Source of the DNA: Desulfobulbaceae bacterium
GTDB taxonomy: Bacteria; Desulfobacterota; Desulfobulbia; Desulfobulbales; SURF-16
Assembly: GCA_020444175.1 (NCBI GenBank)
Contig: JAHLLM010000022.1
Location: forward strand, 1 to 64,000
Direction of reading: 5' to 3'
Length of the DNA stretch: 64,000 nt
Both the position numbers and the translations under genes were made by a program. Below are positions 1-24,599 of this stretch, one piece after another (position 1 is the stretch's first letter; every line of letters begins with the position of its first letter). The notes under the pieces are model-generated. The model made no database searches and had not been told where the DNA came from. It saw nothing but the letters and a program-made list of their open reading frames with translations.

Positions 1-187
1 CGCCACCGGAAGTAAACGTGGTAGCGCCAGCTGCAACTCCAGTTTGAGCAATGGTCAATACGACTGCGTCTGTTCCTGTATTAGCCGCGCCAAAGGTCTG
101 ACCGGACGCAAGCACGGTACCAACACCCAATACGCCACCGGAAGTAAACGTGGTAGCGCCAGCTGCAACTCCAGTTTGAGCAATGGT
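1..187 (-). repeat. 132-bp tandem repeat inside flagellin 1
   Basis: Bases 1-55 are identical to 133-187, giving a period of 132 bp (44 codons). The in-frame period preserves the flagellin reading frame. The array continues beyond the window start, so its copy number cannot be read here. Confidence 0.85.
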
Positions 188-1900
188 AATTGCAACACCG
201 GACATGCCTGTACCGGCTGCACCAAAGCTCTGGCCGGATCCAAGCATGGTACCATCAGCCAGAACCGAACCGGAAGTAATCGTACTTGACTGAGAAGCCA
301 CACCGGTTGCCCCGATAGCCATAGCAACACCAGACGTACCCGTTCCAGCCGTGTCAATAGCCTGGCCCGCTGCAAGCACGGTCCCGACACCAAGTGTCGA
401 ACCGCTGGCTGCGGTTCCGGTGGCAGTGTAGGTCTCGGAACCGGCAAGAGTCATATCCGCAGTAATGAGTTCAGTGGGGGCAATATTGAGAACAGTACCA
501 GCTTCCAGAGTTGAATCGGTAAGAATTGTACTGGCCACAGAAGTCGAACTGACTTCATCAACTTTGGCATCACCACCTAGAGTTGTACCGGCGCCAAGCA
601 CAGTTCCGGTTCCCAGCACTGAACTTGCGGCAAGGACTGAACCGGAGGCCAGGGTCGAGGAGGCGGTTGTCGTGATATTGGAGACAAAAGTATCACCGGC
701 TATGGTCTGATCCGCTGTCCAGCCTGCATTCAGCACAGAATTGGCAGCAAGGGTTGAACCGGCAGCCGCTGTGGAAGCAACTGTGTTCACTGTATCACCG
801 GATGTATCCAGGTCAGAGGTCAAGGCAACAACATTTCCACCGCCGATGTCATTGACGATAATTTCAGCAGAGCCCTGCTGGTTGATCTGAGCGTATCCCA
901 ATGTGGACATTTCAGTACTGCGGAAAACCGCGTCAGTACCTTCACCTGTAGCAGAACCATGGGTTACAGAAATTGCTCTTCCGTCGGAAGAAGTCATCGT
1001 CAGGAAACCGGCACTGTCAACACTGGCAATAACACCATGCTGGGCTGATTTCTGGTTAATAGCTTTGGCAAGGGCGCCGTCAGAGTCATTAGCAGCAACA
1101 TTCAGCGCACCAATGGTAACGCCGTTAATTTTGAAATCAGAATCTGTTGCTCCCGCAGCAATACTCAAGGTTGTGGTTGATTCCACAACGGCGTCCGCAG
1201 ACACACCAAGCACATCGCTGAACTTGTTAATGGCATCGGCTACGGCAGCCATACTGTTTTCACGGGAGTTATTGTACTGGACATCAATTCCCTCAATGAG
1301 GAAATTCTGATTCTGCAGATTACTATAGATACTGATCTCAACCATACCGGCCGCATCATTAGCCAGAGACAACTGAGAAGTTGCCACATGGCCCATTTTG
1401 GTAGACTCGGCTGAAGCAATGGAAATGTTAACAGTTTCACCGGAGTAGGCACCAACCTGGAACTGCTTGTTGGTAAAGTTACCGGATAAAAGTTTCTGAT
1501 TATTAAATGAAGTTGTCCGGGCAATAATATCAAGTTCTTCCATCAGCTTGCCAATATCCGCCTGGATTGCTGTACGAGATTCAGTGGTCTGTCCATCCTG
1601 GGCCGCCTGAATCGCTTTGGTTTTAATAGTGTTTACGATATTGATTGATTCCTGGAGCGCACCATCAGCGGTCTGCACCATGGAAATACCGTCATTGGCG
1701 TTCCTGATCGCCTGGCCAAGACCGAGTGCCTGAGACTTCAGCGAGTCGGCAATCGCCATACCGGAAGCATCATCGGCAGCCTTGTTGATTCGTAATCCTG
1801 AAGAAAGTTTTTCCAGGGATGTCGATAAGGCGTTGTCGTTCTTGATCATGTTTTTGTGGGCGTTTAACGCTGCCACATTAGTGTTAATACGTAAAGCCAT
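1..1900 (-). CDS. Flagellin with repetitive variable domain, C-terminus beyond window (partial)
   Basis: The minus-strand frame from the ATG at 1900 is open to base 1, giving more than 630 residues without the C-terminal flagellin domain. The N-terminus (about residues 1-180) is a classic D0/D1 region: it begins MALRINTN, then has SLEKLSSGLRIN, ADDASGMAIAD and SFNNQKLLSG motifs. From about residue 370 the protein becomes a Ser/Thr/Gly/Ala-rich tract with many steps such as AGSTLAANSVL and SGSVLAASSVLG, and the last visible part is a 44-residue tandem repeat cut by the window edge. A Shine-Dalgarno GGAGG lies 8 bases before the ATG. It would be exported by the flagellar type III system and polymerise into the filament. 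It is a paralogue of the giant flagellin at 20299-24489 and lies downstream of the glycosylation genes, so it is a likely substrate of those enzymes (inference). Confidence 0.93.
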   Translation of the reverse strand, partial: MALRINTNVAALNAHKNMIKNDNALSTSLEKLSSGLRINKAADDASGMAIADSLKSQALGLGQAIRNANDGISMVQTADGALQESINIVNTIKTKAIQAAQDGQTTESRTAIQADIGKLMEELDIIARTTSFNNQKLLSGNFTNKQFQVGAYSGETVNISIASAESTKMGHVATSQLSLANDAAGMVEISIYSNLQNQNFLIEGIDVQYNNSRENSMAAVADAINKFSDVLGVSADAVVESTTTLSIAAGATDSDFKINGVTIGALNVAANDSDGALAKAINQKSAQHGVIASVDSAGFLTMTSSDGRAISVTHGSATGEGTDAVFRSTEMSTLGYAQINQQGSAEIIVNDIGGGNVVALTSDLDTSGDTVNTVASTAAAGSTLAANSVLNAGWTADQTIAGDTFVSNITTTASSTLASGSVLAASSVLGTGTVLGAGTTLGGDAKVDEVSSTSVASTILTDSTLEAGTVLNIAPTELITADMTLAGSETYTATGTAASGSTLGVGTVLAAGQAIDTAGTGTSGVAMAIGATGVASQSSTITSGSVLADGTMLGSGQSFGAAGTGMSGVAITIAQTGVAAGATTFTSGGVLGVGTVLASGQTFGAANTGTDAVVLTIAQTGVAAGATTFTSGG

Positions 1901-2021: not shown

Positions 2022-2099
2022 CAAATACAATCATGATACAATCATGCAAAATTTTACGCACATATCCATTAGGCCGTTTACAGAATTCCTGCAATAGTC

Positions 2100-6148: not shown

Positions 6149-8029
6149 TCACTCACATAAACCGCCTGCATATAAGGAACAAGAATTGATCCGACCTGAT
6201 TGCCGGAAAAGCGCATCCAACAAAGACATCAACCACGCAAAAACCTCTTGCCAGTCACCAGCTTGCCGCTGCCGAAAAATTCGCATGGAGGCATACCAAG
6301 GTGTAGTGTCACCCTCCAGTCCCCAAACCCAATATGGTAAATGGTAGCGAATAGTCCAAACCGGTTTCCCCAAAGCCCCGGCCAAATGTACCAAAGCGGT
6401 ATCAACTGAGATCACCAGATCCAAATGCGCTATGACAGCAGCAGTGTCGGCAAAATCATGGAGTTCGTGACCCAGATCATCAATTACAAGCCCAGGCGGA
6501 ACCCTATCAATCTCTTTAACAGGTTCCCCTTTCTGCAAACTGAAGAGACGCACGGAAGGAAGAGCCGCCAAGGCAAAGAACGGTTCTATACCACAGGCCC
6601 GTTCTCCATTTTCCGGATGAGCTGTATTACCGGACCAGGCAATGCCGATATTGAAATTATCTTGGGAGAATCTATGCCGAAATTTTTCCAAACGGGACTC
6701 AGGTACATGCAGATAAGGAAATACTCCAGGAACACTCTCCGCTGTTGTCTGGAAAATCCCCGGCAAGCTCATGATGCTGACAGCAAGATCAGTACGCCGC
6801 GAACTATCCGATCCTTTCAGGGTCAACTCATCAATGTCCGGCATCATTGCTAATAACGGATGTAATTCAGTTTGTGCTTCCACAACAAGTTTTCGGCAAC
6901 GGCCTTTCACCAAAGGGAGATAACGGGCAAATTGAATTGTGTCTCCAAATCCCTGTTCAGAGAGAACGACAATTGACTTGTCGGAAACATCCGAGCCATC
7001 CCAGCGGGGAAGGTCGGCGTAAAAACTGTTGGCTGCCAGCCAGTCAGCTCTTTTTAATCGCCATTCATACTCCGGCCATGCTTCCAGGTAGTTGCCGGTC
7101 AGAAGCAACAGAAAAGCCTTGTTGACATGGGCTTCAACATATTCAGGGAAAATACGAATTGCTTCGGAATGCTTTACAATGGCCTCATGATAACGATGTA
7201 GGGCGTTCAGTGAGCAGCCCCAGTTATAATATGCCCTGGCCAACTCCGGCACCAATTCCGTGCTACGGCGGTAAAACTCTATGGCTTTGTCAAATAAACC
7301 CTGTTCGTGAAAAACACTTCCCATATTGCAATAGACCTCGGCAAAATCAGGCTGCAAATATAGAGCACTGGCGAATGAGGCAATTGCCTCGATGAGCATG
7401 CCTTGATCATGAAGAAGCTGACCGAGATTATTATGAGCCTCTTCAGAACGAGGCTCCAGCCTGACAGTCTCTTCGAAATCTCTTCTTGCCTCTTCGAACT
7501 GATCAAGCTCTCGGAATATCCCTCCACGGTTTGTATGAGCACCGGCATGATCCGGCTGCAATTCAAGCACCTTGTTATATTGAATCAGTGCCTCAGAAAG
7601 ATTTCCCTGTCGGTGCAGCACGAGACCAAGATTAAACCTGACTTCCACAGCTCCGGGATGAAAACGGATTATATTGTTATATGGATCGAGATAATCACCA
7701 CGAAGTTGAATGGCCTGCAGATAATGTTTGACTGCTGTTGCCTCATCACCTTTAGCACGGCACACTTGCCCCAAACTATTATGATATTCTGCTGCCATGG
7801 GATTTACGGAAACAGCTTTTTCAATCAACTCAGATGCAATCTGATACCTGCATCCCTGAAGAGCAATAAGCCCCAAAAGGTGAAGGGCATCCGGCTGATT
7901 TGGCTCTTTCTGAAGAACAGCCTCATACATTCGCTGCGCTTCTGTAAACCGGCCGGCACGATGAAGACGAAGAGCCTCCTCAAGAGCAGTGGCGGAATCG
8001 TATGTATCAACCAAATTTAACGGCGTCAC
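6149..8029 (-). CDS. TPR protein with C-terminal GT9-like glycosyltransferase domain
   Basis: A 626-residue protein with about eight tetratricopeptide repeats (roughly residues 10-315; motifs such as AEYHNSLGQVCRAKGD and AEVYCNMGSVFHEQGLFDKAI) followed by a GT-B domain of heptosyltransferase type: SIVVLSEQGFGDTIQFARYL at about 350 and VISVDTALVHLAGALGKPVW near 560, the D-T-x-x-x-H-L-A motif of the GT9-like C-terminal half. The start is a GTG at 8029 with only a weak Shine-Dalgarno. It lies 12 bases after the Maf gene. TPR-glycosyltransferases of this build are common beside flagellin genes. The TPR part may hold the long repetitive flagellin acceptor (inference). Confidence 0.82.
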   Translation of the reverse strand: MTPLNLVDTYDSATALEEALRLHRAGRFTEAQRMYEAVLQKEPNQPDALHLLGLIALQGCRYQIASELIEKAVSVNPMAAEYHNSLGQVCRAKGDEATAVKHYLQAIQLRGDYLDPYNNIIRFHPGAVEVRFNLGLVLHRQGNLSEALIQYNKVLELQPDHAGAHTNRGGIFRELDQFEEARRDFEETVRLEPRSEEAHNNLGQLLHDQGMLIEAIASFASALYLQPDFAEVYCNMGSVFHEQGLFDKAIEFYRRSTELVPELARAYYNWGCSLNALHRYHEAIVKHSEAIRIFPEYVEAHVNKAFLLLLTGNYLEAWPEYEWRLKRADWLAANSFYADLPRWDGSDVSDKSIVVLSEQGFGDTIQFARYLPLVKGRCRKLVVEAQTELHPLLAMMPDIDELTLKGSDSSRRTDLAVSIMSLPGIFQTTAESVPGVFPYLHVPESRLEKFRHRFSQDNFNIGIAWSGNTAHPENGERACGIEPFFALAALPSVRLFSLQKGEPVKEIDRVPPGLVIDDLGHELHDFADTAAVIAHLDLVISVDTALVHLAGALGKPVWTIRYHLPYWVWGLEGDTTPWYASMRIFRQRQAGDWQEVFAWLMSLLDALFRQSGRINSCSLYAGGLCE

Positions 8030-8041
8030 AATTCTTTCTGG

Positions 8042-10942
8042 CTATGATGGCACTGTCGGTGATTCTGAACCATTGACGGGTTGCATTCTGTCCTTCAACT
8101 GTCGGTATGCTTCAAATGCAGCCTGGGGCTGATCCATCTCCATATAACAGTCACCTATTTTCTTTAAGAGAAACAACTGCTCCGGTAAGGCGAGCAGACA
8201 TCTTTCATAGGCGGCGATGGCATCCTCAGGCTGCCCGCTTTTAAAAAGATTATCGCCTATATTTTCCCAGAAACGGCCATACTGGCGGTCAATTCTTACC
8301 GCCTCATCAAGATGAGCGACCCCTTGCCCAAAATCTTCGGCAGCAAAAAAGCTATCAGCCAGCTTAAGATGCAAATCAGGATCATTGCCATTCAGGGCAA
8401 CAGCATTCAGGAAAGATTCCGATGCCTTTGCAAAGTCCTCTTTTTTGGCATTGAGTTCCCCGTGATAGCGGTATAATTGCAGCTGTTGTGCTTTAGAGAT
8501 GAAACTACGCAGATTTTCATGCTGCCCAAGTTCGGCTGTCCAGAACTCAATCTCATGCTGCACGGAAAACAAATCATCATTGGCCGCAGCAGTCTCAATC
8601 TTTGTTAAATCTGCGGCCAAAAGCGTCTGCAGACCAGCTCTTAACTTTTCATGCCCGTTACAATATCGCAAGCCCTTTATCACCATGCCGCCAATATCAT
8701 ATCCATCACTTTGGAGTCTGACAGCATATCGAAGATATGTGTCTCCCATTTTTTGCCGGAATGCACCAACTTCATCTTCAAAATCACTATCACGGGCGCA
8801 AGAATGGGCAAAATACATGTCTACTTTTTCAAACTCACCTTGATGGGCGGCGATTACTCCGAGTTGAAAATTTATTTCAGCCGACTCAGCCCACTTATCC
8901 TTTAGCGGGACCAAAGCTGCCCGGGCCAGGACAAAATCTTCAGCAGCCATATACAATCTGACCAGTTCCATGGTCAGATTTATATCATCCCCGGCTTTTT
9001 CCAATTGTTTCAGCAGGTTCATTTCAGTCTGGAAATGATGTAAAACTCTGGAAAGGTGTTTTTCAAAAATAGCCAGGACGCGACTTCTTACCGTATTGAT
9101 TTCTTCGAGCCGTTTCAGATTGACGGTAAGCCATTCAATATATTTTTCTGGCTTGCCTTCAAGCAATGAGATAGCATGCAAGTGGCGCTCGCTCTGCCTG
9201 AAACCCTCAAGAGTGATCTCTTCGAGGAGTGACCAGAATTCACTATCCTTATCAAGGGTGTCATGACCTTGATTTACTTTTGATATATGATTTCTCAGAT
9301 TCTGAGGAAGTGATGCAAAAGAAGTATAACGGCTTGCACCTCGAAGTTTGGCAAGCTCTTTTTTAACAAGGTTGGTTGAACTGTTCGTTTTTTTGATAAC
9401 CTTTTTAAGAGACTTCACCTTAGCTAAGTTTGCCATAATCCCTTTAGCCAGATTTTCTCTCAAGACTGACGCCCCATTATGCTCTTGAGCTTCGATTTCC
9501 TGGATCTGCCGGTCCACCTGATCGATGTGGCAATACTCGTCAATAACCTCCAATAAAGACTTTATTTCCGTGCCTTTAATGTGGGCGCCACCTTCGGTCG
9601 CATTAATAAATTGCTGTGAACAATTGGCAATAGTGCTTTCAAAAAAGGACTTCATACTGAAGAATGCGCGATTGGTCGGCACCTTTTCTTTCACGACACC
9701 TTCCACCCACAAAACATCTTCAGACCCAAGTTGGGACATCATTGCGGTTCTGTTTGTCAAAACGGTATCAGCGGCATGATCTTTCTCATCGGAGAAGGCC
9801 AGATCCTGCCCAGTAAAAATAATTGGCGAGCATCCCATCACCAAAGCGGTCTGCAAACTCAGATGGGCAACAGTTTTTGCCCCAGGCAAAGAAATAGATC
9901 CTCCACAAAGAGAGTTAACCCAATTTTCAATTGGCCGGCCGGTGAAAGTCCAGCAGACATTGGCAGCAGGAAAAATCTTAGGGACATTGGGCGTGACCCA
10001 TGAGGAACAAACCAGCGTTATGTCATTTTTTTTCGGCAGTAAAGGTATCGAGCCAACCATTTTTTCATTGGTGAACTCCTCCATATCAATGGAGGTGACA
10101 AAATTCGGCTGTATATTGTGCTTTAGAAGCTTAGGCAACACCGTGTCAACGGCGATAATCACAGCCCTCCCCTGGGCCCGGCTTAACACGTCAATATTCT
10201 TATCCAAAGATGGACCGCCTGCCACCAGAATAGCGGGGACATCAATGAATGCATCTTTATATTTATCAATAATAGAATGATGCGGCAGGGTCGTCATGTT
10301 GGCTAAACGATTGGCCATAAAAGTTTCGCCAAAAGCAAAAACAGTCGCACCACCTACATTCCAGTCATTAACAAAAGAAAATACCTGGTCGCTCAACTCC
10401 TCATATGCCTCTGCATCAACGCTGAATGAAGGCATATGTTTCAAGGTATGAATAGCTTCAACCAAAAGGGTTGTTATTACAGGGGCAAGAATCCCCGTAA
10501 CATTCGGCTGAGGGGAGATGCTCAACATCAGTCGCCTGTCGGAAAGCATTGCAGACAGATCCTGATGATGAAGAGCCTGCAGAAAAATCCCGGGCTGCAG
10601 GTCAAAAACAGCGAGATGCCTGATATGTGGTCTTTGCTCCAGAAGCGCCAAAGGTGTATAGCCAAGTCCCATACCAATCAGGGTCACGAAGCCCGTAGAG
10701 TCTTCCGGTATCATGTCCAGAAAAATAGGAACCTCTTCTTCCGGATTATTGACATCATGCAGAAAAATCTCCTGGCCGCTATTGTTCAAAACCTTGAGGT
10801 TGAGTTTTCCTGTTGGAGCGACAACAATTTCTCCAAGTGGCTCAGGAGACGTTTCCTGGAGGTATTGCCACACCTGTGGCTGATATTCCTTGAGAACAGC
10901 CATATTGGCGTCAAAAAAATTTCCGTTTTCTGTTCCTTGCAT
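8042..10942 (-). CDS. Maf-family flagellin glycosyltransferase with TPR tail
   Basis: A 966-residue motility-associated factor (Maf) protein. The N-terminal part (to about 200) has GFVTLIGMGLGYTPLAL. The central DUF115/MptE-like domain has DVPAILVAGGPSLDKNIDVL near residue 235, and then AVDTVLPKLLKHNIQPNFV. Characterised Maf proteins transfer CMP-pseudaminic or related nonulosonic acids to Ser/Thr of flagellin in the cytoplasm. From about residue 690 the protein carries several TPR-like repeats (for example FWENIGDNLFKSGQPEDAIAAYERC), making it longer than a typical Maf protein. Its position between the Pse pathway and the other transferases makes it the best candidate for the first glycosyl transfer to the two flagellins. 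Confidence 0.9.
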   Translation of the reverse strand: MQGTENGNFFDANMAVLKEYQPQVWQYLQETSPEPLGEIVVAPTGKLNLKVLNNSGQEIFLHDVNNPEEEVPIFLDMIPEDSTGFVTLIGMGLGYTPLALLEQRPHIRHLAVFDLQPGIFLQALHHQDLSAMLSDRRLMLSISPQPNVTGILAPVITTLLVEAIHTLKHMPSFSVDAEAYEELSDQVFSFVNDWNVGGATVFAFGETFMANRLANMTTLPHHSIIDKYKDAFIDVPAILVAGGPSLDKNIDVLSRAQGRAVIIAVDTVLPKLLKHNIQPNFVTSIDMEEFTNEKMVGSIPLLPKKNDITLVCSSWVTPNVPKIFPAANVCWTFTGRPIENWVNSLCGGSISLPGAKTVAHLSLQTALVMGCSPIIFTGQDLAFSDEKDHAADTVLTNRTAMMSQLGSEDVLWVEGVVKEKVPTNRAFFSMKSFFESTIANCSQQFINATEGGAHIKGTEIKSLLEVIDEYCHIDQVDRQIQEIEAQEHNGASVLRENLAKGIMANLAKVKSLKKVIKKTNSSTNLVKKELAKLRGASRYTSFASLPQNLRNHISKVNQGHDTLDKDSEFWSLLEEITLEGFRQSERHLHAISLLEGKPEKYIEWLTVNLKRLEEINTVRSRVLAIFEKHLSRVLHHFQTEMNLLKQLEKAGDDINLTMELVRLYMAAEDFVLARAALVPLKDKWAESAEINFQLGVIAAHQGEFEKVDMYFAHSCARDSDFEDEVGAFRQKMGDTYLRYAVRLQSDGYDIGGMVIKGLRYCNGHEKLRAGLQTLLAADLTKIETAAANDDLFSVQHEIEFWTAELGQHENLRSFISKAQQLQLYRYHGELNAKKEDFAKASESFLNAVALNGNDPDLHLKLADSFFAAEDFGQGVAHLDEAVRIDRQYGRFWENIGDNLFKSGQPEDAIAAYERCLLALPEQLFLLKKIGDCYMEMDQPQAAFEAYRQLKDRMQPVNGSESPTVPS

Positions 10943-13655: not shown

Positions 13656-14300
13656 TTATGACTCACGCTTTTCAAGTAAAAACCAGGTCAGATCATCCAA
13701 TGGATAATTATTGTCTCGATGATAGACGAAACCATAATCAATAAGAACAAGGTCACTGAAACGATCCAACATTTCCCCGGCAAAATCTCTTTTGAATAAT
13801 TTCCCTTTATGCCCCCGATATGGAATATCCACAGGTGAAGGATTGTAGTACTCAATCACACACACATAACGCCGGCCAAGATGATAAAGCAGGTCGTACA
13901 CTTGGGGCAAAACATCCGGATTGAGGTGGATAAGCACCCCGGATACAAAGCTCATGTCATATTGCCGGCCGGGCTCGAAATCAAGGATTGACTTGTGAAA
14001 CACCTCAGCCTTTCCCCAGGCCTCCAAAGCCTTGACCGCATCTTTATTAATCTCTACGGCTGCGAGCGCCGCCTTATCCCGTAATTGATTTAACACTCTG
14101 AGATTATTTCCGATATTTGCACCAAGCTCGATAAAGGAATCAACATTTTGTGTGCGCGCTAAAATCTTCGCAAAAAGAGCAAGGCGGGCAGCCAGCTCAA
14201 AATTGGAAGGATTTCGGTTAATGTATTCAGAGCCAAAATCCCCTGCCCAAAATGTTTCCTGTTCCGTTGAAAAATCCGTCATACCCATATCCTCATTCAC
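13656..14300 (-). CDS. Pseudaminic acid biosynthesis-associated methylase
   Basis: A 214-residue class I methyltransferase: FIELGANIGNNLRVLNQL is motif I, followed by AAVEINKDAV and the conserved VSGVLIHLNPDVL segment. It matches the pattern of the small methylase repeatedly found inside pseudaminic acid operons. The predicted start is a GTG at 14300 overlapping the end of pseF; an ATG four codons further in (14288), with GAGG upstream, is an equally good start. Its exact target is not established; modification of the nonulosonic acid or its precursor is the usual proposal. Confidence 0.78.
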   Translation of the reverse strand: MNEDMGMTDFSTEQETFWAGDFGSEYINRNPSNFELAARLALFAKILARTQNVDSFIELGANIGNNLRVLNQLRDKAALAAVEINKDAVKALEAWGKAEVFHKSILDFEPGRQYDMSFVSGVLIHLNPDVLPQVYDLLYHLGRRYVCVIEYYNPSPVDIPYRGHKGKLFKRDFAGEMLDRFSDLVLIDYGFVYHRDNNYPLDDLTWFLLEKRES

Positions 14301-14988
14301 CTCTTTTTTTTAAGGCCTCATACATCAATTCTGCTGTCTTCCAATCTTCTGAAGTATCAATGTCCTGCACCAAAAAACGCGGCAGAATCACGGGCAGAGC
14401 ATCTCTGCTGTATATTCTTTGAGTTTCCATGAAGCTTCCGGCATCAAGCCAATAAAATTGACCGGCATCATAATAGGTCTCCGGCAAATCATTTGAGCGC
14501 GTCAATTCATGCTCTGGATGAACCATTGTCAGGTACCCTTTTTCGCCAATAAGCAAGGCCCTGTAAATTGAACTCGGATAGCTCGTCACGGTAAAAACGG
14601 AAGAAACACCTTCAGAGACTATCTTCTCAAATCCCTGGCGGAGATATTTTCCCGTTACAAAGGGAGCAGTGGCATAAAGACAACACAGATACCGAATCTT
14701 TTCTCCCTGAGAGTAAAGCCAGTTCAAACCATGCTCAACCACAGCGGCAGTGGTGGAAAAATCATCAGCTAGTTCCGCAGGCCTCACAAAGGGCACCTCG
14801 GCTCCGTATTGCCGTGCTACTGAACCAATCTCATCCGAATCCGTGGAAACGATTATGCGATCAAAAATCTGAGCCTCCAGAGCTGCCTCAATAGAATAGG
14901 CAATTATCGGTTTCCCGCAAAAATTTTTGATATTTTTGCCGGGTATCCTCTTACTGCCGCCACGGGCCGGAATGAGCGCAATATTCAC
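14293..14988 (-). CDS. pseF: Pseudaminic acid cytidylyltransferase
   Basis: A 231-residue CMP-nonulosonate synthetase. IALIPARGGSKRIPGKN at the N-terminus is the nucleotide-binding signature, followed by FCGKPIIAYSIEAAL and RIIVSTDSDEI. It activates pseudaminic acid as CMP-Pse for the glycosyltransferase. The GTG at 14988 is preferred because GAGG lies seven bases upstream and family members begin at this point; an upstream TTG at 15000 overlaps the pseI stop. It is tightly packed with pseI before it and the methylase after it. Confidence 0.9.
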   Translation of the reverse strand: MNIALIPARGGSKRIPGKNIKNFCGKPIIAYSIEAALEAQIFDRIIVSTDSDEIGSVARQYGAEVPFVRPAELADDFSTTAAVVEHGLNWLYSQGEKIRYLCCLYATAPFVTGKYLRQGFEKIVSEGVSSVFTVTSYPSSIYRALLIGEKGYLTMVHPEHELTRSNDLPETYYDAGQFYWLDAGSFMETQRIYSRDALPVILPRFLVQDIDTSEDWKTAELMYEALKKRGE

Positions 14989-14996
14989 AATTTTCC

Positions 14997-16034
14997 TCAA
15001 CCAACCAGCTTCCAGGCCAGTGGAGTTCCCCTGGAAATATTCTTTTCTGCCCGTCTGCCCAACACAACATCAAGAAACTTTGGAGACAAGCCATGTCCCG
15101 GCCGAATGACCCGTACGTTTTGAGATGTAAATTTTTCCCCGGCAACCATGTTCTTGACAACAAACAGGGAGCGTCGAAAAAGGCGGGACTCTTTCTCTTT
15201 TGTTGTTGGTTCATAGCGAACAGTTCCAAGAGCCTTTTCAGTCTGGCGGACAGCTGTTACCATTTCTTTGAATTCATGGGTCTCAAGGGAAAAGGCACTG
15301 TCCGGTCCCGGCACGCTACGTGACAGAGTCAGATGTTTTTCAATAATTGAAGCACCGAGTGCCACGGCCGCCACCGGGACAGCCAGCCCCATGGAGTGAT
15401 CGGACAGCCCTGTTGCCACTGCAAATGTCTGGGCTAAATGACTGATGGTGCGCAAATTCATTTCCTCAAGGGGGGCTGGATAGGCGCTCGTACATTTAAG
15501 CAGTGCGATTTCAGTTGTTCCATTTTCGCGCAGAGTTTTTACAGCCTCATCAATCTCCGCCAGACTGGCCATGCCGGTTGACATGATGACAGGTTTGCCT
15601 GTGGAGGCAATTTTTTGGAGTAACGGCTTATCAACCAGCTCGAAAGAAGCGACTTTATACAGGGGAACACCCTGCTCCTCAAGAAAATCGACCGCCTTGG
15701 CGTCAAAGGGAGAGGAAAAGAGATCAAGCCCGAGTGCTTGAGCACACTCCTTCAATTTCGGGTGCCAATCCCAAGGAGTAGCGGCCTCGCCATAGAGCTG
15801 ATACAGATTTTTTCCTTCCCAGATTGTACCCTTGATTCGGAAATAATCATTATCGCAGTCAATGGTCAGACTGTCCGGGGTATATGTCTGCAATTTCACA
15901 GCATCGGCACCTGCCTCTTTTGCCGCTTCCATAATTCGGATCGCCTGTCCCAAGTCCTGATTGTGATTGGCTGACATTTCGGCGATGATATAAACTGGCT
16001 CTCCCGAGCAAATTGTACGGTTGTTCAATTTCAT
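14997..16034 (-). CDS. pseI: Pseudaminic acid synthase
   Basis: A 345-residue NeuB-family protein with an N-terminal TIM barrel (VYIIAEMSANHNQDL, AGADAVKLQTYTPDSLT) and a C-terminal SAF/antifreeze-like domain (RRSLFVVKNMVAGEKFTSQN, then RVIRPGHGLSP). It condenses 2,4-diacetamido-2,4,6-trideoxy-altropyranose with phosphoenolpyruvate to give pseudaminic acid. The ATG at 16034 is chosen over a GTG at 16043 because GGAGG lies at the right distance before it. The start follows the pseG-pseH stop with no gap, so the two are translationally linked. Confidence 0.93.
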   Translation of the reverse strand: MKLNNRTICSGEPVYIIAEMSANHNQDLGQAIRIMEAAKEAGADAVKLQTYTPDSLTIDCDNDYFRIKGTIWEGKNLYQLYGEAATPWDWHPKLKECAQALGLDLFSSPFDAKAVDFLEEQGVPLYKVASFELVDKPLLQKIASTGKPVIMSTGMASLAEIDEAVKTLRENGTTEIALLKCTSAYPAPLEEMNLRTISHLAQTFAVATGLSDHSMGLAVPVAAVALGASIIEKHLTLSRSVPGPDSAFSLETHEFKEMVTAVRQTEKALGTVRYEPTTKEKESRLFRRSLFVVKNMVAGEKFTSQNVRVIRPGHGLSPKFLDVVLGRRAEKNISRGTPLAWKLVG

Positions 16035-16036
16035 GG

Positions 16037-17572
16037 TTACCACACCTCCGCCCCTGCCGGGCAGTTCATCACCAGAGCATCAACCCCATGACATTGCTCA
16101 TCTCTGACATGCGCAAACCCTGCTTTTAAAAAGGAACGAATCGACCGTCCGTTATCCTGCCGGATATAGGCAATCACCTCATAAACGGCACGTTCAGCAA
16201 AAAGTTTATGGCAAGCTGCTGCAATGACCCGGCTGCCTAATCCTTTCTCCCTTTTTTCCCGGGACAAACTAATGGAAATAACGGCCTGGTTTTGATCAAC
16301 TTCAAAACGCACCTGCCCGATTTCCATATCTGCACAACAAATAACCCAGAACAAACAATCTTCCTGAATCAGCTTTCCCTGAAACCAGTTCCGGTGCTCT
16401 TCCCAGTTAATTTCCTTTTCATGAAATGAAGCCTGGCGCACAACAGTATCATTGGCCCAATCGAAGACTAATTGGCAATCCCCAAGAGTAACCTTTCGGA
16501 AATGAATACTGGGAGAGAGCATACGGGAAACAACGCGTCTGGCTCCGAGTCCATCCACCAACCTCTGTCCGGCCCGGCTCATGGTGCTCCGACTCTCCTT
16601 ATCTGCACAAAGCTCTTTAACACTTTCAGCAAACCGATCCTCCTGAAGATGCTGTGCCAAGCCACAATTCATTCCTGCTCCTGCTTTTTCCATTTGATCC
16701 GCAACACCGAGCTGATTATCGGCGAGCACGAACACAAGGCACGGAATTCCAAGATATGCCAGCTCCCAGCAAGTCGTTCCACCTGCGGTAATTGCCATAT
16801 CAGCCCACTCCATCAGAGGAGCCATGTTGTCTACTGGGCCCAGCAGTTCTCCCTGGAAATCTGCATTACAAATCATGGCTTCCAATTCTTTTTGCTGCGG
16901 ATTAGCCGGTCCAACGATGATCTTGACATGCAAGTCCGAGAGATTCATGCATTTTAAGGCACAAATAACGCGTCCTGTAGCGTTTACCGGGTCAGCTCCC
17001 CCCATGGTGACCAGGATATTTGTCGCCAGGGTACGAATGACCTTTTTCTGTTGTTTGTGCATGCCGGCAAATTCATCACGAAGCAGCAAAAACCTGCTTC
17101 CAAAAAGGGATTGTGTTTCAGCAAGCAGACAATACTGCAACTGGCCACTATTCACGTTTTGATTCAACAACAGATCCGCATGATATTCGGACAGATGGGC
17201 ATAATCATCAATGACGAGCAGCGGCAAACCAATATTTTTGACTTGCCGTTGGTAATCAGAACTGAACTGATAGCCGTCAAGTGCAAACCACCCGGATCCA
17301 TCGAAAATGCGTTGCTTCGTACTCAAATCAGCCAGCATGCCTATTTCTTCCTGTTCTCCTTGTACCTGTAGCAGATTTACAATTTGACAGCCTTCTTCTT
17401 CCAGTCTTTGAATAAGTTTCCGGCTTTCGATTCGCCCAACAAAAAAAACTTTCCCGCCCTGTTGCAGCCAGGCCTGAGCTAAAGCAAGACACCGCATGAC
17501 ATGGCCCGTTCCCATATGTGCATCAGCATCAGCCCGGATGATGAGACAGGAAGCTTGCCGCCGGGTGGTCAA
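16037..17572 (-). CDS. PseG-PseH fusion: UDP-sugar hydrolase plus N-acetyltransferase
   Basis: One 511-residue frame carries two steps of the pathway. Residues 1 to about 345 are PseG, the UDP-2,4-diacetamido-2,4,6-trideoxy-beta-L-altropyranose hydrolase, with DADAHMGTGHVMRCLALAQAW, MGGADPVNATGRV and ITAGGTTCWELAYLGIP, the GT-B-like nucleotide-binding segments. From about 350 to the end is a GNAT domain of PseH type (HFRKVTLGDCQLVFDWAND, REKGLGSRVIAAA), which acetylates the 4-amino sugar before hydrolysis. The fusion would keep the two consecutive reactions together. The start is a TTG at 17572 with GGAG eight bases upstream, directly after the pseC stop. Confidence 0.9.
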   Translation of the reverse strand: MTTRRQASCLIIRADADAHMGTGHVMRCLALAQAWLQQGGKVFFVGRIESRKLIQRLEEEGCQIVNLLQVQGEQEEIGMLADLSTKQRIFDGSGWFALDGYQFSSDYQRQVKNIGLPLLVIDDYAHLSEYHADLLLNQNVNSGQLQYCLLAETQSLFGSRFLLLRDEFAGMHKQQKKVIRTLATNILVTMGGADPVNATGRVICALKCMNLSDLHVKIIVGPANPQQKELEAMICNADFQGELLGPVDNMAPLMEWADMAITAGGTTCWELAYLGIPCLVFVLADNQLGVADQMEKAGAGMNCGLAQHLQEDRFAESVKELCADKESRSTMSRAGQRLVDGLGARRVVSRMLSPSIHFRKVTLGDCQLVFDWANDTVVRQASFHEKEINWEEHRNWFQGKLIQEDCLFWVICCADMEIGQVRFEVDQNQAVISISLSREKREKGLGSRVIAAACHKLFAERAVYEVIAYIRQDNGRSIRSFLKAGFAHVRDEQCHGVDALVMNCPAGAEVW

Positions 17573-17574
17573 CT

Positions 17575-18732
17575 TTACTTCTCCACTGCTCTTTGCAGAG
17601 AATCACAAACACGCTCAACATCGTCTGCGGTCAGTCCAGGATACATGGGCAGAGAAAGTATCTGTCCGTATGCCGCTTCGGCACATGGACACTGGCCGGG
17701 AAATGTCGCGAAATTGTCCTGGTAAAAAGGATGCAGATGAACAGGAAGATAGTGGACATTAACTCCAATATTTTCGTCTCTTAGTTCCCTGAAAACACGA
17801 GTTCTTTGCTTGCTATCAGCGAGTTTCACAACATAAAGATGATATGCGTGAGAAACATCCGACCGCACAGCTAAAGGTCGGACTGCAGGAATAGAAGCAA
17901 ATTTTGCATCATACTTTCTGGCAATAGACCTTCGCTGCTCAAGCCAACGCGGCAGCTTTTGCAACTGACTGCTCCCAAGGGCGCACTGCAGATCTGAGAT
18001 ACGGTAATTATAGCCCAGGTCAATCATTTCATAATACCAAGTGCCATTCTCTTCACGCTGCCGATGGTCACTGCTGATGCCATGATTACGAAACAGTCTC
18101 ATTTTCTCGGCCATCTCTGCATCATCAGTCATCACCATTCCTCCTTCACACGTGGTAATGTGCTTTACCGGGTGAAAGCTGAAAACGGTGAGATCAGCCA
18201 GGCGGCCTACTGATTCCTCATTTTCTTTTGCGCCAAGAGCATGACAGCCATCGGCAACAAGAATGAGATTGTATTCATCTGCAATTTTTCGCAGTGCACC
18301 ATAATCACAAGGCTGTCCTGCATAGTCTACAGCGATAATTGCCTTGGTCCGCTGAGTGATATGCTGCCTTATTTTTTCTGGATCAAGCAACAGGGTATGA
18401 GAATCGACATCACAGAAAACAGGTCGTCCCCCTTGATAGACAATGCAGTTGGCTGTGGCGACAAATGTCATCGCCGGGACGATGACCTCATCATCAGGGC
18501 CAATACCGATGGCATACATTGCAGCATGAAGGGCCGCTGTTCCGCTGCTCACCGCAACACCAAAAGAGGTATCAACAAATCGGCAAACCGCCTTTTCAAA
18601 TTGTGCGACATTGGGTCCCGTAGTCAACCAGTCGGAATGCAGCACATCGACAACAGCCTGGATATCTTCTTCCGTTATGATTTGTCTGCCGTATGGGATA
18701 AATGGCAGTTGTTGAGTTTTTGCCGGCTTCAT
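17575..18732 (-). CDS. pseC: UDP-4-amino-4,6-dideoxy-N-acetyl-altrosamine aminotransferase
   Basis: A 385-residue PLP-dependent aminotransferase of the DegT/DnrJ/EryC1 group, with SSGTAALHAAM near residue 65, VADGCHALGA near 160 and the PLP-binding lysine at about residue 190 in SFHPVKHITTCEGG. It converts the 4-keto product of PseB into the 4-amino sugar. The ATG at 18732 was chosen because it lies two bases after the pseB stop and fits family length; upstream codons in frame fall inside pseB. Confidence 0.93.
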   Translation of the reverse strand: MKPAKTQQLPFIPYGRQIITEEDIQAVVDVLHSDWLTTGPNVAQFEKAVCRFVDTSFGVAVSSGTAALHAAMYAIGIGPDDEVIVPAMTFVATANCIVYQGGRPVFCDVDSHTLLLDPEKIRQHITQRTKAIIAVDYAGQPCDYGALRKIADEYNLILVADGCHALGAKENEESVGRLADLTVFSFHPVKHITTCEGGMVMTDDAEMAEKMRLFRNHGISSDHRQREENGTWYYEMIDLGYNYRISDLQCALGSSQLQKLPRWLEQRRSIARKYDAKFASIPAVRPLAVRSDVSHAYHLYVVKLADSKQRTRVFRELRDENIGVNVHYLPVHLHPFYQDNFATFPGQCPCAEAAYGQILSLPMYPGLTADDVERVCDSLQRAVEK

Positions 18733-18734
18733 TA

Positions 18735-19991
18735 TTATGCCACAGCCTGCTCTTTCTCTTTCCCTGGCACTTCGCGGATATCGCCATAAACAATCCGCCG
18801 TAACTCTTCTACACCTAGCCATGATTGATTATTGTCACTGGTATAGATAAAATCTTCCGGCAATTTCTTCCCACCACGATAATTTTCCTGCTCCCACCAG
18901 TCCATAGCCGGCAAAATGACATACATCCCCTTATAGCTGATGGTATTTCTTCCTTCATCCTCACCGGTAAGAGCTTCGTGCAACTTTTCTCCCGGACGGA
19001 TGCCAATGTTCTTTATCTTGCAATCCGGAGCTATCGCCCTGGCCAGATCCATTATCCGCATACTTGGAATGATCGGCACAAAAATCTCCCCACCTTCCAT
19101 GTAGTGAAAGGCTTTCAAAACGAGCTCCACGGCCTCTTCAAGAGTAATCCAAAACCTGGTCATGCGATCATCTGTTATTGTAATGGTCCCGCTTTTCTTC
19201 TGTTCAAGAAAGAGCGGTATAACACTGCCCCGGCTGCCTATAACATTGCCGTAGCGCACACATGCAAATCGGGTAATTTTTTCACCTGCATAGGCATTGC
19301 CCTGAACAAACAGCTTGTCGGAACAGAGCTTCGTGGCTCCGTAGAGATTAACCGGATTCACGGCCTTGTCCGTGGACAGGGCGATAACTTTTTTCACCCC
19401 CGTATCTATGGCTGCATCAATAACGTTTTGTGCACCATGAACATTTGTCTTTACTGCCTCAAATGGATTATATTCACATGCAGGCACCTGTTTTAAGGCC
19501 GCGGCATGAACAACCATATCCACCCCGTCCATTGCCCGACGCAACCGATCACCGTCACGCACATCGCCGATAAAAAATCGCAGTCTGGGATCATCCTTGA
19601 AAGCGATACGCATTTCATGTTGCTTCAACTCGTCGCGACTATAAATCCTGATGACCTTGGGGTTGTATTTTTCGAGCATTATACGGCAAAAATGCTTGCC
19701 AAAGGATCCCGTACCACCTGTAAGGAGGATCGCCTGCTCGTTCCAATCAATAGCATTCATATTTTTCACCCCTTTATTAAGGACTTTCTTTGCCTGCACA
19801 ATTGTTTTTTTCTTACCATAAACAAGGTCTTTTATTTGCCCCAATACGGAGATATCCTTTTCAGAATATCTCCTTTGTCCTCCATTCGTTCTCTCTGGAT
19901 TGACAAATTCTTCAAATTCATTCTGCCAGTAACGAATGGTAGAAACCGGCAGATCCAATTCCTGGCTTACCTGCTTGATTCTCAAACTCAT
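18735..19991 (-). CDS. pseB: MerR-type DNA-binding domain fused to PseB dehydratase
   Basis: A 418-residue frame. Residues 1-75 form a MerR-family winged helix-turn-helix (LRIKQVSQELDLPVSTIRYW, then NGGQRRYSEKDI), which normally binds promoter DNA. From residue 77 the protein is a full PseB, UDP-GlcNAc 4,6-dehydratase (5-inverting): ILLTGGTGSFGKHF Rossmann loop and the LSTDKAVNP...LYGATK catalytic segment. The frame is continuous across the joint. An ATG at the joint (19758, MNAIDW) has an excellent Shine-Dalgarno AAGGGGTG just before it, so free PseB may also be made from the same message. The start at 19991 has AGGTGGG upstream; a further ATG at 20045 has none. Confidence 0.88.
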   Translation of the reverse strand: MSLRIKQVSQELDLPVSTIRYWQNEFEEFVNPERTNGGQRRYSEKDISVLGQIKDLVYGKKKTIVQAKKVLNKGVKNMNAIDWNEQAILLTGGTGSFGKHFCRIMLEKYNPKVIRIYSRDELKQHEMRIAFKDDPRLRFFIGDVRDGDRLRRAMDGVDMVVHAAALKQVPACEYNPFEAVKTNVHGAQNVIDAAIDTGVKKVIALSTDKAVNPVNLYGATKLCSDKLFVQGNAYAGEKITRFACVRYGNVIGSRGSVIPLFLEQKKSGTITITDDRMTRFWITLEEAVELVLKAFHYMEGGEIFVPIIPSMRIMDLARAIAPDCKIKNIGIRPGEKLHEALTGEDEGRNTISYKGMYVILPAMDWWEQENYRGGKKLPEDFIYTSDNNQSWLGVEELRRIVYGDIREVPGKEKEQAVA

Positions 19992-20057
19992 TTTCCCACC
20001 TGTATTTTTTTGAGAGCTGGAATAAAAAATGTGCACAACATACATGTTTCACTAACC

Positions 20058-20298: not shown

Positions 20299-23200
20299 TC
20301 AGGCCACCAGACTCAAGAGGCTCTCCGCACTTTTATTGGCCTGCAGCATGGCAAAGGAACCTGCCTGAGTAAGGATTTGAATTTTTGAAAAAATGGCGGC
20401 CTCTTCGCCAAAATCCACATCACGGATGGTTGATTCAGCAGAAAAGACATTGACCATGGTTGTTGAAATGTTTGCAATCGTTGAACCAAGCTGATTCTGT
20501 ATTGAGCCCAAATCAGAACGGACCTTTTCAAGATCACTCAATGCCGCATCCGCAACAGTCATGGCGCTTTGCGCCCCATCCTGCGTCAATACATTTATCT
20601 GGGACAGACGCAAAATTTCGCTCATTCCCATTCTTGTAGTCGCATATTCGCCCCCGTCATTTTCTCCGAGAATGGAACCGGCAGCAAGATGGGAGCCCCC
20701 TTGCAGAGTCAAAGGATAGCTCACAGCATTATTTCCTTGGGTGACAATACTTTCAGAAAGGATGGAACCGGCTTGATGGATTATTCCTCCAATTGCCACA
20801 ATAGGACTTGTCAGATAGGTCCCCTCGGCGATGACGCTTCCCGAAGCTATTACAGAGCCAGCCGCCAAGAGCATATCGCTGTCATGGCTTACAACTTCAT
20901 CTTGGGCCAATGTGATGCTCCCACCCAAAGTTGATCCATTTTTCAGGGCGGATCCATCGGCTATGACGGATCCAGCCCCAAACATCATATCACTCACCAA
21001 AGTTACATCTTCCGCTAATTCCGCAACCCCATTCACTTTTGTTCCAGCCTTGATGAGCGTTCCACCATTATTGGCAATGTCTGAACCGGCCAAAAGAGTC
21101 ATTTCCCCATGCAACTCCATTTCTGCTGCTAATTCATATTCATCAAGTCCGAGAGATGAGCCCTCGGTAATAAAACTTCCGGCTGCAAAAGATGACCCTG
21201 CTGCGGCTTCAAGCTCACTGCTGATAAGCATGTCACTGCCAAGGACCATATTCTCCCGAATTTTCATACCGCTTATCAGAGTGGCGTCAGCGTAAAGCAC
21301 CGAATTATAAGTAATGAAGCTGTTGAAGGCTAAAGAGGATCCGGTAACAAGGGACATACCCCCTGTGACATCCATATCCTGAACAAGGGTTATGGCGTCA
21401 GCATCGACATGACTGCCGCTAGCCAGCAAACTGCTTGCCGCAAATTCCGATCCTGCCACAAGGCTCATGCTTCCTGTCACCGCCATATTTTGCGTTAAGA
21501 TCAATTTATCTGCGTCAACATGGCTTCCGGCGGTAAGTACACTCCCTGCCTCAATTCGGGAACCTGCAGTCAAATCATTCTGCCCGACAAGGTTCATATC
21601 GGCGGCAACATTCATAATGGCAGTGAGTGTCACAGGATCTGCATCCACATGAGAACCGCCTTCAAGTACGCTACCCGCCTCTATGCGTGTCCCTGCGGCC
21701 ATGGTTGCATCTTGGCCGAGCAGAGTTGTATTTGCCCCGCAATTCATAACCCCGGTCAAGACAAGAACGTCGTTATCAACATGGGAACCTACAGCAAGAT
21801 CGCTTTCTGTCTCAATGCGAGAAGTGGAAGAAAGCGAGGCATCCTGGCCAAGCAAGGTCATATCAGCAGCAACATTCATAATGGCAGTGAGTGTCACAGG
21901 ATCAGCATCCACATGGGAGCCGTTTTCAAATACGCTACCAGCCTCTATACGCGTTCCTGCGGCCAGGGTTGCATCCTGCCCGAGCAAGGTCATATTGGCA
22001 CCTGTATTCATGACACCGGTTAGCGTAATCGTGTCAGAATCAACATGAGAATCTACAGCAAGGCTACTGCCCGCCTCAAGACGGGAGCCAGCTTGGAGCA
22101 CGACTCCGCCTGCAACGGTTACATTCTGAGCGACATCAAGTGTTGCAGGAACCATGGGAGCGGTTACAATATCGGGCCCCACCAAAGGACCACCTGCTGT
22201 TAAAGTAAAGGTCTGGCCTGCCGGTATAACTGTACCAACGGCTAAGATTGTGCCTGCATTGAGCAAGCTGTTATTTGCTACAGTGCTGGGGCCATTGGAG
22301 GAGGCGATAGCTGCGATGCTTCCGTTCCCGGTCAAAATTGTTCCTGAACCGAGTGTGGAACCAATGGCTACGGTAGAGCCGGTAGCAAGCACACTGTTTG
22401 CGGTTATGGTTGCAGGCCCGTTGGTGGCTGCAATAAGGTCGATGGTTGTACTTCCAGTTAAGATCGTTCCCGAACCAAGGCTTGATCCGGCTGCAAGTAC
22501 GGATCCGGCGGTTAAGACAGAATTTGATGTCAGGGTGCTGTTGCCGTTTGTACTGGGAATTGCCGACACGGTCACATTTCCGGTCAATACCGTTCCCGAG
22601 CCAAGTGTGGAACCAGTGGTCACAGTAGAGCCGGCAGTCAGCACACTGTTTGCGGTTATGGTTGCAGGCCCGTTGGTGGCTGCAATAAGGTCGATGGTTG
22701 TACTTCCAGTTAAGATCGTTCCCGAACCAAGGCTTGATCCGGCTGCAAGTACGGATCCGGCGGTTAAGACAGAATTTGATGTCAGGGTGCTGTTGCCGTT
22801 TGTGGCGGCAATTGCAGCTACTGTGGCACTCCCTCCAAGTATTGTACCGGAGGCAATCACGGATGCTGCACGCAGAATCGACCCTGCAGCCACAACACTC
22901 GATCCGTTTGTAAAAGGTATTGCCTCAATAACCGCATTTCCCTGCAAAACAGTACCGGAGGCAATTACTGACCCCGCAGACAATCGGGATCCAGTCAAGA
23001 CAGAGCTGTCTGCAGTGGTTGCAGCAGTTGCGGCAATGCTCGCATCCCCTTTAAATGGTGTTCCAGAAGGAATGACACGTCCGATATCAAGAACGGTTCC
23101 CGCTCCCAGCACACTGTTTGCGGAAAGCACAGAACCGGCTAATATTCTACTTGCCCTGCCGGTTACTCCTGTATCTTCCAGGTATGCATCTCCTGCCAGG

Positions 23201-24489
23201 ATATCTGTTGAAACAATCTTCGAGCCTGCCCCAAGTGAACTGCCTTCGCCCATCACAGTGGAGGCAGTGAGAACAATATCGGAAGCAAAAATATCTCCTG
23301 CCAAGTCCTGTCCGGCGAGCCAGCCTGCGGCAAGAATTGATCCGGCAGCAAGCACTGATCCGGATGAGAGTGTGGATTCCGAGACCATGGTTGAATCTCC
23401 GGATGTTTCCAGATCCGTTGTCAGGGAAACGACTTCTCCGCCCCCTACATCGGTTACTCTGACATCCTGTGATCCTTTCTGTTTCAGCTGAATGTAACCA
23501 AGTGTAGAGAGATCATCGCCCCCAAAAACCGCATCAATTCCCGGACCGCCATCAACCTTAATTGCCCGGCCATCAGCTGAAGAAAGTAAAAGCCGGCCAC
23601 TCGAATCAACACTGGCTACAACACCATGTTCTTCCGTTTTCTGATTGATAGCTTTAACCAGAGCGCCGTCTCCATCATTATCTCGGACTTGAAGCTCACC
23701 AATAGTCACACCATTTATAGTGAAATCATGATCCGTCATACCGGCAATGAGAGCAAATGTTGTGCGCGATGAAACAACGGCATGGGCTGATATGCCAAGT
23801 TCGTCATTCAATGCCGAGATCGTATCAGCCAGAGCAGCCAGGCTATGCTCCCTGCTGTTATCATAAAGCACCTGGGTAGGAGCAATAATATATGGTCTAT
23901 TTTTCTGATTGCTGAAAATACTTATTTCAACAAGGCCGGGCTGATCGTTACGAAGAGAGAGTTTTCCTTTGACAATATGGCCCAATTTACTGGATTGGGA
24001 GGGGGGAATGGAAATGTTGACATCCTCACCAACGTAACTTCCCACCTGAATACGTTTATTTTGAAAGCTGCCCGAGAGGAGGCGTTGATTATTAAAAGAC
24101 GTTGTGGTGGCAATACTGTCCAGCTCCTGAAGAAGCTTAGATATATCAGCCTGGATTGCTTCACGGGACTCCGTGGTCTGCCCGTCCTGGGCCGCCTGGA
24201 TGGCCTTGGTTTTGATGGTATGGAGGATATTGATGGATTCTTCCAGAGCGCCGTCCGCTACCTGCACAACGGATATGGCATCATTTGCATTCCTGACAGC
24301 CTGCCCCAGCCCCAGGGCCTGGGAGCGCAATGAATCGGCAATATACATTCCGGAGGAATCATCTGCCGCCTTGTTGATGCGCAATCCTGATGACAATTTT
24401 TCCAGTGAAGAAGCAGCAGCCCCTTCATTTTTCAGGGCAGTCAGCCTGGAATTCATTGCAGCTATGTTATTATTAATTCGCAGTGTCAT
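20299..24489 (-). CDS. Giant flagellin with repetitive beta-solenoid-like variable domain
   Basis: A 1396-residue flagellin, roughly three times the usual length. Residues 1-180 are the D0/D1 N-terminus (MTLRINNNIAAMNSRL, EKLSSGLRINKAADDSSGM), and the last 113 residues are the D1/D0 C-terminus (VRSDLGSIQNQLGSTIANI, then TIRDVDFGEEAA). Between them, from about residue 360 to 1280, the chain is built of short steps such as AGSVLAAGSSLGSGTIL, arranged in 42-residue units (first half) and 44-residue units with GSHVDAD (second half). The hexapeptide-like spacing of hydrophobic residues suggests a beta-solenoid. Ser and Thr are very frequent, giving many possible O-glycosylation sites. The ATG has a poor Shine-Dalgarno; a strong GGGAGGTGA lies about 45 bases upstream. 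Confidence 0.93.
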   Translation of the reverse strand: MTLRINNNIAAMNSRLTALKNEGAAASSLEKLSSGLRINKAADDSSGMYIADSLRSQALGLGQAVRNANDAISVVQVADGALEESINILHTIKTKAIQAAQDGQTTESREAIQADISKLLQELDSIATTTSFNNQRLLSGSFQNKRIQVGSYVGEDVNISIPPSQSSKLGHIVKGKLSLRNDQPGLVEISIFSNQKNRPYIIAPTQVLYDNSREHSLAALADTISALNDELGISAHAVVSSRTTFALIAGMTDHDFTINGVTIGELQVRDNDGDGALVKAINQKTEEHGVVASVDSSGRLLLSSADGRAIKVDGGPGIDAVFGGDDLSTLGYIQLKQKGSQDVRVTDVGGGEVVSLTTDLETSGDSTMVSESTLSSGSVLAAGSILAAGWLAGQDLAGDIFASDIVLTASTVMGEGSSLGAGSKIVSTDILAGDAYLEDTGVTGRASRILAGSVLSANSVLGAGTVLDIGRVIPSGTPFKGDASIAATAATTADSSVLTGSRLSAGSVIASGTVLQGNAVIEAIPFTNGSSVVAAGSILRAASVIASGTILGGSATVAAIAATNGNSTLTSNSVLTAGSVLAAGSSLGSGTILTGSTTIDLIAATNGPATITANSVLTAGSTVTTGSTLGSGTVLTGNVTVSAIPSTNGNSTLTSNSVLTAGSVLAAGSSLGSGTILTGSTTIDLIAATNGPATITANSVLATGSTVAIGSTLGSGTILTGNGSIAAIASSNGPSTVANNSLLNAGTILAVGTVIPAGQTFTLTAGGPLVGPDIVTAPMVPATLDVAQNVTVAGGVVLQAGSRLEAGSSLAVDSHVDSDTITLTGVMNTGANMTLLGQDATLAAGTRIEAGSVFENGSHVDADPVTLTAIMNVAADMTLLGQDASLSSTSRIETESDLAVGSHVDNDVLVLTGVMNCGANTTLLGQDATMAAGTRIEAGSVLEGGSHVDADPVTLTAIMNVAADMNLVGQNDLTAGSRIEAGSVLTAGSHVDADKLILTQNMAVTGSMSLVAGSEFAASSLLASGSHVDADAITLVQDMDVTGGMSLVTGSSLAFNSFITYNSVLYADATLISGMKIRENMVLGSDMLISSELEAAAGSSFAAGSFITEGSSLGLDEYELAAEMELHGEMTLLAGSDIANNGGTLIKAGTKVNGVAELAEDVTLVSDMMFGAGSVIADGSALKNGSTLGGSITLAQDEVVSHDSDMLLAAGSVIASGSVIAEGTYLTSPIVAIGGIIHQAGSILSESIVTQGNNAVSYPLTLQGGSHLAAGSILGENDGGEYATTRMGMSEILRLSQINVLTQDGAQSAMTVADAALSDLEKVRSDLGSIQNQLGSTIANISTTMVNVFSAESTIRDVDFGEEAAIFSKIQILTQAGSFAMLQANKSAESLLSLVA
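21380..22130 (-). repeat. Array of about 44-residue (132-bp) repeats in flagellin 2
   Basis: Successive units contain AGTRIEAGSVxxxGSHVDAD followed by a short acidic/Met-rich segment ending in LLGQDA. Alternate units are closest to each other: for example the segment at 21610-21650 recurs nearly unchanged at about 264 bp (two units) further on. Boundaries are approximate. Confidence 0.7.
22388..22551 (-). repeat. Exact 164-bp direct repeat, copy 1
   Basis: Identical base for base to 22640-22803; flanking bases differ. In frame with the flagellin coding sequence. Confidence 0.9.
22640..22803 (-). repeat. Exact 164-bp direct repeat, copy 2
   Basis: Identical to 22388-22551, offset 252 bp. Recombination between the copies would remove or add 84 residues without changing frame. 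Confidence 0.9.
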
Positions 24490-24504
24490 TTCTAGGCAGG
24501 GATT

Positions 24505-24545
24505 CGATTCTCTGTTTTATCTTTTTGTCAATTTCACCTCCCTTC
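24505..24545 (-). promoter_or_regulatory. Conserved flagellin mRNA leader element (flagellin 2)
   Basis: Carries GAAGGGAGGTGA (24534-24545) and GAGAATCG (24505-24512) on the minus strand, the same blocks as in the flagellin 1 leader. The Shine-Dalgarno-like block is not next to the flagellin ATG; the nearest in-frame codon after it (TTG at 24531) runs into a stop after four codons, so only a tiny peptide could start there. Confidence 0.45.
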
Positions 24546-24599
24546 TATCAACATGCAAATAACAAACCATCTTATACCCATTATTTTTTCACTGTTATT

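Follow-up and report, generated by a model that had tools for sequence, protein, structure and literature searches.

No part of the flagellar filament varies more than the outer domains of flagellin, and both giant flagellins and outer-domain sheaths are already known. In two marine gamma-proteobacteria the filaments built from giant flagellins are thick, and Desulfotalea psychrophila is named as well (PMC6248924). The proteins of Bermanella and Oleibacter exceed 1000 residues and carry a duplicated central insert; their DE/DX inserts are large domain duplications plus a glycine-rich insert, and the words "hexapeptide" and "helix" are absent from the text (PMC6248924). In E. coli H7/H6 and Achromobacter, flagella of the outer-domain-sheath kind also have large outer domains, three of them (D2-D4), which dimerise; these domains sheathe the core, with no solenoid in the part of the report that we draw on (PMC8931119). 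The flagellins of Helicobacter pylori (FlaA, FlaB) and Campylobacter jejuni (FlaA) (9ygu, 9yh1, 6x80) have only 508-576 residues. Here we describe gene B, a flagellin gene in a stretch of 64,000 nucleotides (the window) from the genome of a sulfate-reducer-type Desulfobulbaceae bacterium (GCA_020444175.1, contig JAHLLM010000022.1, positions 1 to 64,000). Its product is like those of H. pylori and C. jejuni in D0, D1 and the Flagellin_IN-bearing D2, in both sequence and structure, but it has a putative solenoid of 913 residues where the region after D2 stands.

We believe, with a probability of about 65%, that gene B encodes a FlaA-FlaB-type flagellin like those of H. pylori and C. jejuni, but with its outermost domain swapped for a long hexapeptide beta-solenoid, most likely left-handed, that would form glycosylated rods on the filament surface. 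In the open-access papers searched we found no report of a flagellin with a hexapeptide, left-handed-helix or solenoid domain, nor any account of the family.

At 1396 residues the protein is above the 1000-residue threshold for giant flagellins in the sense of Thomson et al. 2018. An earlier note on the window placed the repeats between intact D0/D1 ends, and both ends are indeed intact in Pfam: Flagellin_N covers residues 5-142 (8e-42, 143 bits, cut-off 26.6) and Flagellin_C residues 1311-1394 (5e-21, 75 bits, cut-off 23). The insert does not start at D1, however, as a D2-like domain with a Flagellin_IN match (residues 255-306, 47.9 bits, cut-off 22.7) precedes it. This domain (residues 8-185 of the model) superposes on H. 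pylori FlaB with Z 18.1 and a root mean square deviation of 2.1 Å; H. pylori FlaA (Z 17.9) and the C. jejuni flagellin (Z 15.1) also match, at about 2 Å over 173-175 residues. The solenoid would therefore take the place of the outermost domain only, and the note's description of it as unlike the common D2/D3 domains is right for that domain but not for D2, which is retained. Coordinates are collected in Table 1.

The repeats follow a six-residue register. We trained a six-state cyclic model on residues 365-1290, with 20 shuffles trained in the same way as the control. The register score was 434, compared with 48 +/- 7.5 for the shuffles (maximum 64), which rules out a chance repeat and bears out the estimate of about 900 residues of hexapeptide-like steps, the insert being 913 residues long (365-1277). 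In this model the register is unbroken from residue 396 to 762, and key positions hold L, I, V, M or F in 53 of the 61 hexapeptides (397-762), where the most seen in 20,000 shuffles was 31. The sequence has the pattern [LIV]-[GAED]-X2-[STAV]-X, with L/I/V at 80% of phase 0 positions and S/T/A at 63% of phase 4 positions. Lags of 6, 12, 42, 44, 84 and 88 stand out as peaks in the identity autocorrelation. The two repeat classes of 42 and 44 residues proposed earlier are thus real, but the units that were duplicated are 84 and 88 residues long. Similarity between adjacent 42-mers, or between adjacent 44-mers, is only about 50-55%; the 88-residue unit is two 44-mers, and alternate 44-mers (836-879 and 924-967) share 91% amino acid identity. 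Each 44-mer consists of seven hexapeptides and two one-residue bulges. Between the classes lies a stretch that contains several prolines (763-791); the register is lost there, leaving about 22 and 28 turns on either side when counted at 18 residues per turn.

Table 1. Features of gene B and its surroundings, in positions of the window.
Feature	Residues	Positions	Strand	Basis
Giant flagellin gene B	1396 in all	20299..24489	-	Open reading frame and translation
D0/D1 core, N-terminal	1-170	23980..24489	-	Flagellin_N; phmmer to solved flagellins
D2-like domain with Flagellin_IN	171-350	23440..23979	-	Pfam and structural match
Whole hexapeptide insert (putative solenoid), 913 residues	365-1277	20659..23397	-	Register score
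Unbroken hexapeptide run, 61 hexapeptides including the 42-residue repeats	397-762	22204..23301	-	Six-state model, count, Hexapep
84-residue duplicated unit, copy 1 (two 42-mers)	569-652	22534..22785	-	86.5% DNA identity to copy 2
84-residue duplicated unit, copy 2	653-736	22282..22533	-	86.5% DNA identity to copy 1
Register break between repeat classes, candidate turn	763-791	22117..22203	-	Six-state model
44-residue repeats (four clear copies 792-967, then degenerate)	792-1060	21310..22116	-	Register, repeats, Hexapep
C-terminal block of the insert	1071-1290	20620..21279	-	Best-conserved part in relatives
D1/D0 core, C-terminal	1300-1396	20302..20592	-	Flagellin_C
5' leader of gene B, degenerate: GGGAGGTG kept; no Shine-Dalgarno region and no 5' arm of the hairpin		24490..24560	-	Leader comparison
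Pseudaminic-acid genes MerR-PseB, PseC, PseG-acetyltransferase, PseI, PseF, directly downstream of gene B		14293..20045	-	NCBIfam equivalogs, Pfam
Maf-type flagellin glycosyltransferase		8042-10942	-	MptE-like 2.6e-34, Maf_flag10_N 8e-8 and Glyco_transf_9, for the two glycosyltransferases (6149..10942) together
TPR-glycosyltransferase		6149-8029	-	As in the row above
Conserved leader of gene A with CsrA-type hairpin; GGAGGTGA farther upstream of the start		1901-2060	-	Comparison with relatives
N-terminal part of gene A, the second giant flagellin gene; contig ends within repeats		2..1900	-	Sequence comparison

A six-residue step is typical of a rod-like fold found in sugar-modifying enzymes. 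Against a Pfam cut-off of 27, Hexapep (bacterial transferase) scores 40.6 bits in the hexapeptide run and 29.9 in the 44-residue region, where Hexapep_2 also reaches 29.9 (cut-off 27); two fragments from relatives score 47.0 (L069) and 31.3 (L083), and the C-terminal block alone falls below the cut-off at 23.8. None of five reversed fragments gave a Hexapep match. A phmmer search of the PDB with residues 391-764 gave six matches, each to a gamma-carbonic anhydrase or to a hexapeptide transferase, all of them left-handed beta-helix proteins. In NCBIfam the matches include NeuD (2e-12) and LpxD (8e-8). The insert thus shares its hexapeptide signature, above the Pfam cut-off, with LpxD, NeuD/PglB and gamma-carbonic anhydrase. 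Unlike these enzymes it has no catalytic partner domain and is part of a filament protein, and its roughly 50 turns, if each has 18 residues, are far more than theirs. The sequence evidence points to a left-handed beta-helix.

Several observations weigh against our reading. An AlphaFold2 model built with 16 sequences gave a solenoid with short strands at every hexapeptide, but the structure prediction suggested in the earlier note succeeded only at low confidence, with a mean predicted local distance difference test score (pLDDT) of 56.6 for the model and of about 50-58 in the hexapeptide part. Outside D2, the structural neighbours of this low-confidence model (Foldseek/VIA) are right-handed helices. 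AlphaFold2 has also been reported to yield confident but unrealistic beta-solenoids for repeats (PMC11795689). Finally, gene B has no recognisable Shine-Dalgarno site and is evolving 2-4 times faster than its relatives, a point to which we return below.

The right-handed neighbours raise the possibility that the insert is a beta-helix like those of the autotransporter adhesins, an adhesin-like rod grafted on a flagellin. EtpA matches with Z 17.4 over 363 residues, followed by pertactin (12.7) and Ag43 (12.4), and the 44-residue region, where pLDDT rises to 60-81, resembles SRRP and SufB/SufD. We consider this unlikely, as the model is of low confidence and of a kind prone to the artefact just cited, and the Hexapep signature is directional, with PDB sequence matches that are all to left-handed-helix proteins. 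To our knowledge, strict six-residue spacing, here kept over 61 steps, is also not usual in right-handed beta-helices. Left-handed-helix structures were absent among the structural-neighbour rows, which we did not count against a left-handed fold. We set aside the two AlphaFold2 models as too uncertain to arbitrate handedness or packing. Because of the reported solenoid artefact (PMC11795689), we gave the sequence signature more weight than AlphaFold2 and left handedness open. The beta-helical domain of the earlier note is upheld in part, as a beta-solenoid: the directional signature and the insert's conservation across many genomes support it, AlphaFold2 weakly so.

The low pLDDT would also be expected if the insert were an extended, glycosylated low-complexity coat with no stable solenoid. 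Its composition (Ser/Thr 24%, Gly/Ala 27%) fits such a coat, as do the pseudaminic-acid (Pse) and Maf genes nearby. However, I, L, V, M and F make up 29% of the insert and recur at every sixth residue of the hexapeptide run (53 of 61 steps), the same period is found in relatives, and proline (1.8%) is not enriched as it is in mucin-like stalks. We regard a coat of this kind as quite improbable.

If the insert is a left-handed parallel beta-helix with 18 residues per turn, it would be interrupted near residues 763-791, with a rod of about 22 turns on one side and one of about 28 on the other. The flagellin would pass through the flagellar channel unfolded and fold at the tip, and once incorporated in the filament its glycosylated rods would line the surface as a thick outer sheath. 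A single rod of about 240 Å is unlikely because the short linker present could not return its C-terminal end to D1. A flagellin chain has to come back to D1, which makes two rods in a hairpin, or another folded-back arrangement, more likely. We infer that the rods project from the filament. They would lengthen through tandem duplication of the 84- and 88-residue units.

The insert has a match in 35 of 97 related genomes, the source genome being counted among the 97. In the relatives that we examined, D0/D1 is followed in turn by the IN domain, the solenoid region, the C-terminal block and D1/D0, and their flagellins of this type are mostly 690-1271 residues long. The lag spectrum of their inserts has maxima at 6, 12, 18, 24, 30 and 36/37. 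The same anatomy in dozens of independent genomes rules out an assembly artefact. A profile search also found the insert in other families of the same phylum (L112-L116). A scan of named genomes turned up 15 loci. Most of them carry the titles Desulfobulbaceae, Desulfobacterales or Deltaproteobacteria, and one is from Sulfuricurvum (Campylobacterota), where a protein of 804 residues has all the parts of this type of flagellin. A search of a viral sequence collection found no relative.

In a tree of the D0/D1 core, most of the ordinary flagellins of the same order (442-774 residues) are set apart from those with the insert; L114, marked as ordinary in this tree, has the insert too according to the profile search. 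One 690-residue flagellin (L046:3828-5897, plus strand) has the hexapeptide insert and lacks the IN domain. Its core clusters, on long branches, with an insert-less 290-residue flagellin of the source genome, which suggests that the solenoid module was transferred to a second, distant flagellin core. A broader picture is conceivable, in which a widespread family in Desulfobulbales and beyond uses a left-handed beta-helix of the sugar-acyltransferase type as a length-adjustable pair of glycosylated outer rods, with filament thickness tuned by 84/88-residue duplications and the module also moved to the L046 core. We offer it tentatively and think it somewhat less than probable as a whole. Should the fold be confirmed, the inserts, which span about 310 to 910 residues on a single core type, would form a natural size series for probing the role of outer domains in stiffness, waveform and sediment motility, and the rods could be a rigid, repetitive scaffold for surface display.

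Six loci (L035, L036, L038, L041, L042 and L049) form a divergent group of paralogues among the solenoid flagellins, with long branches, inserts all of about 320 residues and, in most members, about 22 extra C-terminal residues. At L033 there is a group II intron match (2986-3200, minus strand; RF02001, RF01998) immediately downstream of a solenoid-flagellin gene.

The window holds part of a second giant flagellin gene, gene A, which shares a 5' leader with the relatives examined: GGAGGTGA, a hairpin GGGAAAGGA(A/T)TCCC, and GGAGG before the ATG. We saw the same CsrA-type leader in L033, L034, L040, L044, L045, L047, L048, L051, L055 and L061. The hairpin loop has the AnGGA motif, to which CsrA binds, and the CsrA and FliW genes are adjacent in the source genome. 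An Rfam scan of the leader in five loci matched no family. The leader of gene B still has the upstream element and, of the hairpin, its 3' arm; the gene B hairpin is predicted at -2.3 kcal/mol, whereas the other leaders that we folded give -8 to -11 kcal/mol.

With the Shine-Dalgarno region and the hairpin's 5' arm missing, gene B might be silent or decaying, possibly a sequence store for recombination with gene A, and form no filament. This concerns the copy and is compatible with the beta-solenoid that we favour. The core branch of gene B is 0.47, long relative to its nearest relatives in the tree, and its core nonsynonymous divergence (dN) from relatives is 0.19-0.23, compared with 0.05-0.11 among them. 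On the other hand, the gene has 1396 codons with no stop, its core motifs are retained, and the core ratio of nonsynonymous to synonymous differences (pN/pS) of about 0.2 indicates purifying selection, with synonymous sites near saturation. We judge complete silence doubtful, though a chance to be taken seriously. The lost Shine-Dalgarno site and fast evolution do mean that gene B possibly contributes little to the filament; it may serve as a minor or conditional flagellin or be silent, and of the two genes, gene A more plausibly encodes the main filament. The C-terminal half of gene A is probably a 420-residue open reading frame (L062) at the end of another contig (C75), which carries FliD as well.

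The models for PseB, PseC, PseG, PseI and PseF all score over their NCBIfam cut-offs. PseB (18735-20045, minus strand) begins with a MerR-type helix-turn-helix (MerR_1, 7e-16), a fusion that could link pseudaminic-acid synthesis to DNA binding, and PseG carries a C-terminal acetyltransferase domain that is presumably PseH. After the Pse genes come histidine-synthesis-like genes, the Maf-type transferase, the other glycosyltransferase and then gene A. Given these neighbouring Pse and Maf genes, glycosylation of the rods is likely. With the window's own Maf as the query, we found a Maf gene in 16 of the 27 loci of this flagellin type that had at least 2 kb available upstream, whereas of the 16 rows for ordinary flagellins only 1 had one (p = 0.0009 by Fisher's test, uncorrected for relatedness). 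Elsewhere in the source genome, contig C13 encodes a 1364-residue protein with Flagellin_N and Flagellin_IN (L063:5714-9805, minus strand) that is probably an oversized FlgL, and several relatives also encode long proteins with weak Flagellin_N matches.

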